From the NCBI GenBank assembly GCA_005889225.1, contig VBEW01000079.1:1-40876 (forward strand): a DNA stretch of 40,876 bases, read 5' to 3'. Positions 765 through 6,198 of this stretch are shown in pieces; the first letter of the stretch is position 1; the number at the start of each line of letters is the position of its first letter. Both the position numbers and the translations under genes were made by a program. Source of the stretch: Chloroflexota bacterium. GTDB lineage: Bacteria; Chloroflexota; Dormibacteria; CF-121. A model generated the notes under the pieces. It made no database searches. It was given only the letters and a program-made list of their open reading frames with translations, and was not told where the DNA came from.

Positions 765-2189
765 TTGGGAACGCAACCGCGCCGGCGGCGCGCGTCCGCC
801 GCGCTCGGCCCGCTGCGCGTCTGGCTGTCTGCCCGCGCCGCCGTGGCCGTGATCGCTGGAGTGGCCCTGCTGGTCGCGGGGCTGGCCGGGTTCCGCGTCT
901 GGTCGACCATTCACGCGATTGCGCCGCGCGCCCAGCCTGCCGACCTGATCGCGCTGGTCCATGCCCAGACCGACGAGCCGGGCTCGCTTGGCTGGAAGAT
1001 CAAGCACGACGAGCGGATCAACATCCTTCTGCTTGGATACGGAGGGCCAGGACACGATGGGGCCTATCTCACCGACTCCATCATGGTGCTCTCGATCCGC
1101 CCGGGAACGCGCCAGGCGACCATGGTCTCGCTACCACGGGATCTCTGGCTGAAGATTCCTGCCCTTCCCAACAACCGTTTCATGATGGGCAAGCTCAACA
1201 GCGCCTATGCGATCGGGACCGATCGCCGCAATTATCCGAACGTGCGCAGCGATTGGAAAACTGCAACCGGCGGCGGGGACCTGGCGGCGGCCACCATCTC
1301 GCAGATCATCGGACAGCGGGTCGACTACTGGATCGGCGTCGATTTCAAAGCCTTCCGTGACGTGGTTGATGCTCTCGGCGGAGTTCAAATCAACGTGCCG
1401 ACCGTGCTTGACGACCGGCGCTACCCGCGGGGCGAGACCACGGGAATGATGCACATCCACTTCGATCCCGGTTGGCGGCAATTCGACGGCGAGCGGGCCC
1501 TCCAGTATGCCCGCTCCCGGGAGTCGACTTCCGATTTCGACCGCTCTCGACGCCAGCAGCTCATCATGCTGGCCGTCCGGCAGCGCGTCTTCTCACTGAA
1601 TGCGATTCCTCGGCTACTCTCGCTACTCGGCGCTCTGCAGGACAACGTGCGCACCGACCTGCGGCCCGCTGAGATGCAGCAGCTGGCCGAGCTGGCCGGG
1701 CAGTTCAAGGAGGAGGACATCCGGCGGATTGCGATCGACACCTCGAATTTCTTGCGCAGCGGCTACAACAGCAGCGGCCAGTATGTCCTGCAACCGCTCG
1801 ATCCAACCTACGACGCACTGCATCGTTACCTGGCGATGGCGCCGGTTGACCGGTCGGTGCTGGCGACCCAGGTACCGTTCCAGGTGCAGGATGGAAGCGG
1901 CCGCTACTGGTTGCCCTACGGAACTGGGACGCCGGCCAGCATCATGACGTCCATGCTCAAGGCGCAGGGATGGGACGCCCGCCTGGGAGCGGCCACCACG
2001 CAGCGGGTGGCGCAGACTCGCATCCTGGACGGCTCCGGTGGGAGTGCGGCCGCGACCGTGGCCTGGCTGCAGCGCTACTTCGGGGGAGTGGTGACGACGG
2101 TCGCGCCGCCGGCCACCGGTCCCAGCGTGACCGTCCTGCTCGGCTCCGATTTCACGCAGAGAACCTTTCCCGCGCCTGCCAAGAGGTAG
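765..2189 (+). CDS. LCP (LytR-CpsA-Psr) family protein with C-terminal LytR_C-like domain
   Basis: N-terminal TM; NILLLGYGG...TDSIMVLSI...VSLPRDLWLKIP; DALGGVQINVP; ALQYARSRESTSDFDRSRRQQ. TTG start as given by the ORF track. Confidence 0.9.
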   Translation: MGTQPRRRRASAALGPLRVWLSARAAVAVIAGVALLVAGLAGFRVWSTIHAIAPRAQPADLIALVHAQTDEPGSLGWKIKHDERINILLLGYGGPGHDGAYLTDSIMVLSIRPGTRQATMVSLPRDLWLKIPALPNNRFMMGKLNSAYAIGTDRRNYPNVRSDWKTATGGGDLAAATISQIIGQRVDYWIGVDFKAFRDVVDALGGVQINVPTVLDDRRYPRGETTGMMHIHFDPGWRQFDGERALQYARSRESTSDFDRSRRQQLIMLAVRQRVFSLNAIPRLLSLLGALQDNVRTDLRPAEMQQLAELAGQFKEEDIRRIAIDTSNFLRSGYNSSGQYVLQPLDPTYDALHRYLAMAPVDRSVLATQVPFQVQDGSGRYWLPYGTGTPASIMTSMLKAQGWDARLGAATTQRVAQTRILDGSGGSAAATVAWLQRYFGGVVTTVAPPATGPSVTVLLGSDFTQRTFPAPAKR

Positions 2190-2229: not shown

Positions 2230-3177
2230 ATGAGTTTGGCCGGCGCCTTACTGTCCGGCGATGTCCGGGCGCTGGCGAGGGCGATCAGCCTGGCGGAAGA
2301 CCGTGACCCGCAGGCAACCGAACTGGCGGCCGAGTTGCAGCCCCACACCGGTAAGGCGTACCTGGTCGGGCTCACCGGTGCCCCCGGCACCGGCAAGAGC
2401 ACGCTGGCCGACGCGCTGGTCAAAGTCATCCGTGACCGCGGGCAAACCGTCGGGGTGATTGCGGTGGACCCGAGCAGTCCCTTCACCGGCGGTGCTGTTC
2501 TCGGCGACCGCATCCGGATGTCGCGACATACCCTCGACCGCGGCGTCTTTATCCGCAGCATGGGTGCTCGCGGTCATCTGGGTGGGCTGGCCGCCGCCAC
2601 CCGAGAGGCGATTCACCTGCTCGATGCTTACGGACGGGACGTGATCCTGGTGGAAACCGTCGGAGTCGGGCAGTCCGAACTGGAGATCTCGACAATCTGC
2701 GACACCGTTGTCCTGACGCTGATGCCCGAGTCGGGCGACGCCGTCCAGACGATCAAGGCGGGCATCCTGGAGATCGCCGATGTTTTCGTCATCAACAAGG
2801 TTGACCTGGGCGGCGCCGAGAAGACCCGGCGGTTGATCCAGGACGCCATGGCTCTGGGTCCCAAGCAGCCGTGGCGGCCGCCCATCGTGGTGGCATCCGC
2901 CGCGAAAGAGGAGGGGATCGCAAAGGTCTGGGAGGCAATCCTCTCGCACCAGGCCTTTCTCAAAGATAGCGGCGCGCTGACCTCCCGGCGGCAGGAGCGT
3001 GTCAAACAGGAAGTCGTCGCCCTGGTGGCCGAACGCGCTCGCGAGCAGGCGCGCCGGCTTCTCGACGGCGACACTGCCGTAGGACGGCGGCTCCGGGAGA
3101 ACCGGAATGGGAAACTAAACCCATACGCGCTCGCCGAGGAGCTCCTCGCGGAGCGAGCGTCGCAAGGAGGCAGTTGA
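2230..3177 (+). CDS. meaB: MeaB/ArgK-family G3E GTPase (acyl-CoA mutase chaperone)
   Basis: [45 protein letters not shown]; directly upstream of the mutase genes. Confidence 0.93.
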
Positions 3178-4829
3178 TGGCGCTTCGCCACAAGACCGCG
3201 TACGAGGACTGGGCGACCCGGTATCGAGCCGGGAAGCGGGCCCCCAAGGAGACCGCCACCACCATCTCCGGCATGCCGGTCGAGCCGCTCTATACGCCGC
3301 AAGACCTGGCCGGGTGGCGTTACGACGAGAAGCTCGGATACCCGGGTGAATTTCCCTACACCCGCGGCGTCTATCCATCGATGTACCGGGGGCAACTGTG
3401 GACCATCCGTCAATTCGCCGGCTACGGTACCGCCGAGGAGACGAACCGCCGCTACAAGTTCCTGCTCTCTCAGGGTCAGGCTGGTCTGTCGGTGGCCTTC
3501 GACATGCCGACCCTGATGGGCTACGACTCCGACGACCCGCTGAGCGAAGGTGAGGTGGGCCACTGTGGGGTCGCCATCGACTCGCTGGAGGACATGGAAA
3601 CCCTCTTCAACGGCATCCGGCTGGACCAGATCACCACCTCGATGACGATCAATTCGCCGGCAGCCATCCTGTACGCCATGTACATCGCCGTCGGCGAGAA
3701 GGAAGGGTTGGCTCCCGGAACGCTGGGTGGCACCTTGCAGAACGACATCCTGAAGGAATACATCGCGCAGAAGGAGTACATCTTCCCGCCCGAGCCGTCG
3801 ATGCGGCTGGTGGTGGACACCATCGTCTTTGCCGCCCGCCAGATGCCCCGCTGGAATGCCGTCTCGATTTCCGGATACCACATCCGGGAGGCCGGCTCGA
3901 CAGCGGTCCAGGAGCTGGCGTTCACCCTGGCTGATGGGATGGCCTACGTGGAGGCGTCCGTCAAGGCCGGCCTGAAGGTCGACGAGTTTGCGCCTCGGCT
4001 CTCGTTCTTCTTTGACTCCCACATCGATTTCTTCGAGGAGATCGCGAAGTTCCGGGCTGCCCGGCGCCTGTGGGCACGGATCATGCGCGACAAATACGGC
4101 GCCCGCGATCCCAAATCGTGGATGCTGCGGTTCCACACCCAGACCGCCGGCGTCTCACTCACCCGGCAGCAGGTCGAGAACAACATCAGCCGTACGGCCT
4201 ACGAAGCGATGGCTGCCGTGCTCGGCGGAACGAACTCGCTGCACACCAACTCGATGGACGAGGTGCTGGCGCTGCCGACCGAACGGGCGGCGCAGATTGC
4301 CCTTCGCACCCAGCAGGTGCTCGCTCACGAGACCGGCGTCACGAATACCATCGACCCGCTGGCCGGGTCCTTTTTCCTGGAGCGGTTGACCGACGAGATG
4401 GAACGCGGCGCGCAGCAGTACTTCGATCGGATCGACGAGCAAGGGGGCGTGCTTCGCTGCATCGAGAATGGATTCTTCCAGCGGGAAATCGCCGATGCGG
4501 CGTTCGAATTCGAGCGCAAGCTGGAGGCCAATGAGCGGATCATCGTGGGCGTCAACGCCTACAAGGAGGGCGAAGGTGCCGATGTGCCCACCCTCAAGAT
4601 CGGGCCCGAGACCGAGCAGGGCCAGGTTGCGCGGCTCAAGGCCCTCAAGGCTCGCCGCGACAACATCAGCGTGCGCAACCGGCTGGACGAGCTCAAAGTC
4701 GCGGCTCAGGGCAATGACAACCTGATGCCGCCGCTGCTGAACTGCGTCAAGGCGTACGTCAGCGAGGGGGAGATCATGGCCGCGCTCAAGGAGGTCTTCG
4801 GCGTCTACCGTGAGCCGATCCTCTTCTAG
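3177..4829 (+). CDS. B12-dependent acyl-CoA mutase catalytic subunit; specificity residues match isobutyryl-CoA mutase (IcmA-like)
   Basis: [77 protein letters not shown] 3177 follows AAGGAGG and overlaps the meaB stop. Phe80 (TTC 3414-3416) and Gln198 (CAG 3768-3770). Confidence 0.93.
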
Positions 4830-4919
4830 ATGATTCGGCTTCGCTTTTCTCTGTTGGGACGGGTGATAGCGGCCATCGCCGTCGTTGTGATCGTCGTCCT
4901 CTACGTGATGCGGCACTGA
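4830..4919 (+). CDS. 29-aa predicted single-TM mini-protein between mutase subunits
   Basis: ATG abuts the upstream stop (TAGATG) and its TGA overlaps the next ATG (TGATG). Translation [29 protein letters not shown]. Below the ORF-track length cutoff. Confidence 0.5.
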
Positions 4920-5362
4920 TGGCGCCGGCAGAGACCTCGACCAGGTCACACACGCCGATGAATCAAGACAAGCGCTGGCGGGTGCTCACCGCCAAAGTTG
5001 GCCTCGATGGTCACGATCGTGGGGTCAAAGTTGTATCGCGCGCCCTGCGCGATGCGGGCGTTGAGGTGATCTATGCCGGACTTCGCCAAACGCCCGAGAT
5101 GGTCGTGGAGGCGGCCATCCAGGAGGACGTCGATGCCATCGGTGTCAGCCTGCACAGCGGCGCGCACATGACCCTGATCCCCCGCATCCTCGAGCTCCTC
5201 AAGGAACGCAACGCCTCCGACATCGTCATCTTTGGCGGCGGCATCATCCCCCAGGACGACGCCACCGAGCTGAAGAAGATGGGTGTCGTCGAGATCTTCG
5301 GGCCGGGCAGCTCGCTGCAATCGATCATCGACTTCGTGAACAAGGGATTCAAGGCGGCGTGA
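4919..5362 (+). CDS. B12-binding subunit of acyl-CoA mutase (IcmB/McmA2-like)
   Basis: [14 protein letters not shown] (DxHxxG), [20 protein letters not shown]. Confidence 0.93.
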
Positions 5363-6198
5363 TCGCCGCGGCGCCGCGAAAGCTCGGCCGTTTCGAGCTT
5401 CACTGCGTGAGCGATGGGGTCTGGCGTATGGATGGCGGCGCGGTCTTTGGCGTCGTTCCCAAGGTCATGTGGGAGAAACTGAAACCCCCGGATGCCCGCA
5501 ACCGGATCGCGATGGCCACCAACTGTCTGCTCGTCCGGACGCCTGACGCCAACATCCTGATCGAGGCCGGCATCGGGCCGAAACTCTCCGACAAGGAACG
5601 CGACATCTACGCCTACGAACGAGATCCCGGGATTCCCGATGGGCTGGCCGGCATCGGCCTGAAGCCGCAGGACATCGATCTGGTCGTCCTCAGCCACCTG
5701 CACTTCGACCACGTCGGCGCTCTGGTGACGCCGGGCCGCGACGGTGAACTGACGCCACTGTTCCCACGAGCCCGGCACGTCGTGCAGGCACGGGAGCTCG
5801 AGGCGTGGCGCCACCCGGATCCCCGCAGCAAGCCTTCATACAAGCCCGAGAACCTCAGTCTCCTCGAGGAGGCGGGACGGCTCCAGGTTGTCGACGGCGA
5901 CCAGGACATCGCACCAGGCGTGCGCGTCCGGGTGACGGGCGGTCACACCGCTGGACACCAGGCGGTCTACGTTCAGGACCAGGAACAAACCGTCGTGTTC
6001 ACCGGCGACTTCCTCTTCATGCGCGCCTTCATGAAGGTGAACTGGGTGAGCGCCCTGGATCTCTTCCCGCTGGAGGCCATCGAGCGCAAGGCGGCCTTCC
6101 TCAGTGAGGCCGCCCGGGAACGGTACCTGATCTGGCTCTATCACGAGACCGAGCAGATGCTGGGCTACTGGACTGGCGAAGGCTTTACCAGCGTTTAG
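5359..6198 (+). CDS. MBL-fold metallo-hydrolase
   Basis: [12 protein letters not shown] motif, [19 protein letters not shown] overlap with upstream gene. Confidence 0.88.

Follow-up and report, generated by a model that had tools for sequence, protein, structure and literature searches.

The three consecutive genes at positions 2230-5362 of the analysed window, a stretch of 40,876 nucleotides, very likely encode an adenosylcobalamin-dependent isobutyryl-CoA mutase (ICM), composed of an IcmA large subunit with a separate IcmB B12-binding subunit and accompanied by a MeaB protein. Several lines of sequence evidence agree on this reading: an acyl-pocket signature, the position in a tree with its AU test, neighbouring gene counts, co-occurrence with methylmalonyl-CoA epimerase, a separate methylmalonyl-CoA mutase (MCM) locus in the same genome, butyrate-oxidation genes upstream, and weak matches to 3-hydroxyisobutyryl-CoA hydrolase and HIBADH. 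The initial annotation had proposed ICM rather than MCM, a choice that the neighbourhoods, the epimerase distribution and the separate Tyr/Arg MCM support. The window corresponds to contig C295 of a MAG of 2.92 Mb and 90.6% completeness, whose closest named relatives are the soil Chloroflexi MAGs CF_94 (96%) and CF_27 (95%).

Features of the putative mutase operon and its surroundings, in window coordinates
Feature	Position	Strand	Evidence
Overlap with the end of contig G000:C153	1..169	.	169 bp, 3 mismatches
MeaB-type GTPase, putative metallochaperone loading adenosylcobalamin	2230..3177	+	TIGR00750 339.8 bits (cut-off 240.75), PF03308 316.3 bits; stop overlaps mutase start
Acyl-CoA mutase large subunit (IcmA type), 550 aa	3177..4829	+	PF01642 742 bits, TIGR00641 756 bits; tree position in Phe/Gln group with IcmA
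Phe80 codon (Tyr89 in MCM, Ile90 in HCM)	3414..3416	+	Alignment
Ala107 codon (Asp117 in HCM)	3495..3497	+	Alignment
Gln198 codon (Arg207 in MCM, Gln208 in HCM)	3768..3770	+	Alignment
Small B12-binding subunit (IcmB type), 147 aa	4919..5362	+	TIGR00640 166.7 bits, PF02310 99.1 bits
DGHDRG, DxHxxG cobalamin lower-ligand motif of the small subunit	5006..5023	+	Motif read
Metallo-beta-lactamase-fold hydrolase	5359..6198	+	PF00753 82.4 bits; start overlaps small-subunit stop

The mutase, the B12-binding subunit and the GTPase are three separate ORFs, the single fused chain of the IcmF type being absent, and the window genes scored 361.7 bits with NF045497, far under its cut-off of 1500. The separate small subunit expected of an ICM is present with its DxHxxG motif, which, like the catalytic SGYH motif of the large subunit, is as in the superfamily. 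The ATG at 3177 was taken as the right start of the mutase because it overlaps the MeaB stop and because the relative in the sister genome G003 begins MALRRKTAYEEW. The small subunit may instead start at 4958, since its 130-residue relative in G003 starts near there.

In MCM, a Tyr/Arg pair holds the carboxylate of methylmalonyl-CoA. Translation of 3177-4829 confirmed the residues that the initial annotation had read at these positions, Phe80 and Gln198, 118 residues apart and with the glutamine within KEYIAQKEY, and alignment to the 2-hydroxyisobutyryl-CoA mutase HCM (4r3u) likewise upheld its assignment of an alanine, Ala107 in LSVAFDMPT, to the place of the HCM Asp117. By the same alignment, the MCM-type Tyr89/Arg207 pair is absent and the Phe/Gln pair of ICM present, and Phe80 and Ala107 replace the Ile90 and Asp117 of HCM. 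These pocket positions can be considered fixed, since the window mutase is 48% identical to 4r3u. Among 181 near-complete aligned sequences, Phe80 and Gln198 occurred in 121 and Tyr80 and Arg198 in 60, the pair always being kept together; a few Ile/Gln HCM-like sequences were found in the aligned set besides these two classes, which were also split by columns 113, 199 and 200 at 90% or more. Given this partition and that of the neighbouring columns, the Phe/Gln signature is not due to chance. Two such pocket sites are described as specificity determinants (Jost et al., as cited in PMC7238569), and a literature search on the Phe80/Gln198 pair found nothing relevant. Phe/Gln alone does not separate isobutyryl-CoA from larger non-carboxylated acyl-CoAs.

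A tree of 69 rows, computed with careful settings and with very long branches left out, gathered the Phe/Gln and HCM sequences into one group apart from all Tyr/Arg sequences (support 99/99). Streptomyces-type IcmA was nested among the Phe/Gln rows, which include the window protein, although supports inside this group were moderate, many of them 80-95. Plasmid records yielded no named Streptomyces IcmA, and the IcmA-type references were drawn from Actinomycetota genomes and labelled via an IcmA sequence, to which L237 is 95% identical; on this identity, its length of 566 aa and F80/Q198, we take L237 to be Streptomyces-type IcmA. Forcing the window protein into the Tyr/Arg rows cost 43.7 log units and was rejected (p-AU 0.0138); tree and AU test thus bear out a position with IcmA and outside the MCM clade, placement inside which the initial annotation had named as a refutation of its reading. 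HCM and a haloarchaeal Phe/Gln branch formed their own group (100/98) beside the bacterial Phe/Gln group, and the true Ile/Asp/Gln proteins L070 and L072 grouped separately with 4r3u. The mutases of the haloarchaeal plasmids L076 and L236, located on this branch next to HCM, are of the Phe/Gln form (read in L076). As haloarchaeal Phe/Gln sequences adjoin HCM, the pair alone neither proves nor defines an ICM. On grounds of parsimony, we infer that the mutases of non-carboxylated substrates probably started out with Phe/Gln, the Ile/Asp of HCM being derived from it.

Exactly two mutase large subunits were found in the window's own genome. The other one (G000:C182:4427-5953) carries Tyr/Arg and directly follows a methylmalonyl-CoA epimerase gene; after it come a propionyl-CoA carboxylase beta / MmdA-type carboxylase and matches to both succinyl-CoA synthetase subunits, the genes of this locus being named via their sister-genome copies. 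By its content, this is the expected locus leading from propionyl-CoA to succinate, with the real MCM, and beside it the window mutase is not needed as an MCM. Neither an epimerase nor a propionyl-CoA carboxylase or succinyl-CoA synthetase gene is adjacent to the window mutase, whereas epimerase and carboxylase adjoin the mutase of C182.

Genes within 6 kb of 25 Tyr/Arg and 77 Phe/Gln mutase genes were then counted. Epimerase (15/25 for Tyr/Arg versus 2/77 for Phe/Gln), a PCC-beta-like carboxylase (16/25 versus 3/77), SucC (11/25 versus 0/77) and SucD (10/25 versus 1/77) accompanied the Tyr/Arg form, while MeaB (0/25 versus 30/77) and the small subunit (2/25 versus 29/77) accompanied the Phe/Gln form. 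Fisher p values ranged from <1e-8 to 7e-5 for the first five and reached 0.005 for the small subunit; they are descriptive only, the mutase genes being mutually related and the counts not phylogenetically independent. For acyl-CoA dehydrogenase and thiolase neighbours within the same distance, there was no significant difference between Tyr/Arg and Phe/Gln genes.

Mutases occur in 60 of the 61 genomes of the class that were searched, mostly two or more in each. Among the sequences read, orthologues of the window protein all carry Phe/Gln and second copies mostly Tyr/Arg; an Ile/Gln protein that has the aspartate of HCM was seen in two genomes of the class (L070, L072), and a close relative of Streptomyces-type IcmA in one (L071). 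Relatives with 57-69% identity come from Chloroflexota, Acidobacteriota, Nitrospirota, Bacteroidota/Ignavibacteriota, Bacillota, Actinomycetota and others, in a list biased by the presence of KEYIAQKE among the search peptides. All mutases were sought in 36 cross-phylum genomes and most sequences read: the Tyr/Arg form was also present in 32 of 35 genomes with the Phe/Gln form (in one, L226, as a partial piece with the arginine). Phe/Gln without Tyr/Arg was seen in Thermogemmatispora aurantia, Nitrospira defluvii and the Bacteroidetes MAG G090, which may be incomplete, having an epimerase with no Tyr/Arg mutase found. Methylmalonyl-CoA epimerase exceeded its curated cut-off in 63 of 66 genomes. 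Such a match was missing from Thermogemmatispora, from Nitrospira and from G077, a MAG of 1.1 Mb whose epimerase match is truncated. Since the Phe/Gln-only Thermogemmatispora and Nitrospira have no epimerase over the cut-off, the epimerase tracks the Tyr/Arg enzyme and not the Phe/Gln one. In an Anaerolineales MAG (L116:2281-7650), a Tyr/Arg and a Phe/Gln mutase share a strand at a distance of about 2 kb, and the epimerase is located between them.

Regarding the upstream region, C153 carries, in order, HMG-CoA lyase, enoyl-CoA hydratase, thiolase (acetyl-CoA acetyltransferase), two acyl-CoA dehydrogenases and 3-hydroxybutyryl-CoA dehydrogenase, as in G003, whose counterparts they match at 79-89%. 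In that sister genome, the same six genes, preceded by an MCC-beta-like carboxylase, stand upstream of the mutase cluster. Because the end of C153 overlaps the start of the window and G003 has these genes linked, the mutase operon very probably adjoins predicted butyryl-CoA-oxidising enzymes in its own genome too. A LytR-CpsA-Psr family gene (window 765-2189), directly upstream of the mutase operon, separates it from the butyrate-oxidation cluster, and such a gene recurs near the mutase operon within the genus and in further families of the class. On the other side, the metallo-beta-lactamase-fold gene is probably co-transcribed with the small subunit, and its product is possibly an acyl-CoA or hydroxyacyl-CoA hydrolase tied to the pathway; outside the phylum, homologues occur close to Phe/Gln mutases (L081, 43%; L140, Nitrospira defluvii, 38%; L156, 36%; L157, 44%). 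The Nitrospira defluvii MAG groups within 12 kb thiolase, 3-hydroxyacyl-CoA dehydrogenase, Phe/Gln mutase, metallo-beta-lactamase-fold hydrolase and small subunit with MCC-like carboxylase, enoyl-CoA hydratase, HMG-CoA lyase and MeaB, possibly a leucine/valine breakdown island; this organism oxidises nitrite and has no epimerase match above the cut-off.

In the proposed mechanism, MeaB would load the cofactor and the B12 radical would let the carbonyl group of the acyl-CoA migrate from one carbon to the next, interconverting isobutyryl-CoA and n-butyryl-CoA in a pocket with Phe80/Gln198 in place of the carboxylate-holding Tyr/Arg. Isobutyryl-CoA would probably come from valine, and the upstream genes for dehydrogenase, hydratase, 3-hydroxybutyryl-CoA dehydrogenase and thiolase would serve to convert butyryl-CoA to acetyl-CoA. 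Signature, gene order, separate MCM locus and tree position are observed; the reaction that the mutase performs, the direction it takes and valine as the origin of the substrate are deduced.

The classical valine route is only partly recognisable. No convincing canonical 3-hydroxyisobutyryl-CoA hydrolase was found in the own genome, where the best match (134.8 bits) was the C153 crotonase and where gene absences are soft evidence given the completeness of the MAG; the match in G075 reached 342 bits, the score of a real one, and a convincing hydrolase was present in at most 3 of 66 genomes. HIBADH exceeded its cut-off in none of 57 genomes searched, a strict cut-off that only 1 of 14 control genomes passed, and a crotonyl-CoA carboxylase/reductase route was represented by no match over the cut-off in 11 genomes. 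The genome has several E1 2-oxoacid dehydrogenase genes, branched-chain and pyruvate types pooled. Against a valine route through ICM, it also encodes MMSDH (624 bits), the last step of the classical route. MMSDH also serves inositol and beta-alanine breakdown. It could therefore mark a part of the classical route or act on other substrates.

An MCM whose substrate pair drifted to Phe/Gln with its substrate unchanged would explain why the best curated models carry the MCM name and why fold, catalytic SGYH and DxHxxG are those of the superfamily, but it is very improbable: the genome already has a Tyr/Arg MCM, accompanied by epimerase and carboxylase genes, Phe/Gln is conserved across phyla and persists in Thermogemmatispora and Nitrospira lacking an epimerase match, and the tree and AU test disagree with it. 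The MCM name itself arises by default, as had been predicted, the top NCBIfam match over its cut-off being TIGR00641 'methylmalonyl-CoA mutase N-terminal domain' and public records of relatives reading 'methylmalonyl-CoA mutase family protein'. We consider equally slim the prospect of an HCM/RCM-type enzyme, acting as a 2-hydroxyisobutyryl-/3-hydroxybutyryl-CoA mutase: no solved structure is closer than HCM 4r3u (575.8 bits), which shares the glutamine, but Phe and Ala occupy the Ile90 and Asp117 sites and the true Ile/Asp/Gln proteins of the class stand apart with 4r3u.

A mutase acting on another non-carboxylated acyl-CoA, e.g. isovaleryl- or pivalyl-CoA, with isobutyryl-CoA as a side substrate and isovaleryl-CoA supplied by the adjacent leucine-type genes, is unlikely. 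IcmF isomerises isovaleryl- and pivalyl-CoA too (PMC10481361), and the upstream genes of G003 include HMG-CoA lyase, an MCC-beta-like carboxylase and enoyl-CoA hydratase; yet the cluster offers leucine a complete-looking route without a mutase, 3-hydroxybutyryl-CoA dehydrogenase and thiolase suit butyryl-CoA, and the nested IcmA-type sequences carry the same Phe/Gln pair.

For the isobutyryl-CoA mutase reading, the right name alters the predicted metabolism: a propionate route through MCM together with an isobutyrate/valine-to-butyrate route, versus two MCMs under default annotation. Less expected was the regularity with which Phe/Gln and Tyr/Arg mutases occur as a pair. From the 32 of 35 genomes with both forms and the scarcity of a convincing 3-hydroxyisobutyryl-CoA hydrolase, we tentatively suggest, as a possibility on the doubtful side, that a Phe/Gln mutase, often MeaB-linked, is a standard partner of a separate MCM in many bacterial phyla, replacing the 3-hydroxyisobutyrate route, and that valine is commonly oxidised via butyryl-CoA in uncultured soil and sediment bacteria. 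The Phe/Gln versus Tyr/Arg test, combined with neighbourhoods, can relabel many 'methylmalonyl-CoA mutase family' genes across phyla, and valine breakdown in uncultured Chloroflexota becomes a directly testable question.

The operon is a further case of a known type, since ICM clusters with MeaB and the misannotation of such enzymes have already been published: IcmF is often annotated as MCM (PMC7764203). With MCM, the window enzyme shares the superfamily fold, the B12 motif and MeaB, but not the Tyr/Arg pair or the adjoining epimerase, carboxylase and succinyl-CoA synthetase genes. HcmA (4r3u), its nearest solved structure, has the glutamine in common with it and differs by Ile90/Asp117 and by its separate branch. 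IcmF has the chemistry predicted here and the same three modules, fused in IcmF but borne by three proteins in the window. In Syntrophothermus lipocalidus TGB-C1, a reported isobutyrate isomeriser, the ICM cluster Slip_0757-0760 was proposed to route isobutyryl-CoA to butyryl-CoA for beta-oxidation (PMC5017805); as described there, it likewise unites large subunit, small subunit and a MeaB-like protein, although the host is an anaerobic syntroph and the cluster adds a cob(I)alamin adenosyltransferase. Streptomyces IcmA/IcmB, with MeaB, resembles the window system in its separate subunits, its Phe80/Gln198 in the same numbering and its place in the same Phe/Gln tree group; the window protein differs in being about 54% identical to the IcmA-type L071, and in the window all three genes are joined in a single operon next to genes of butyrate oxidation.
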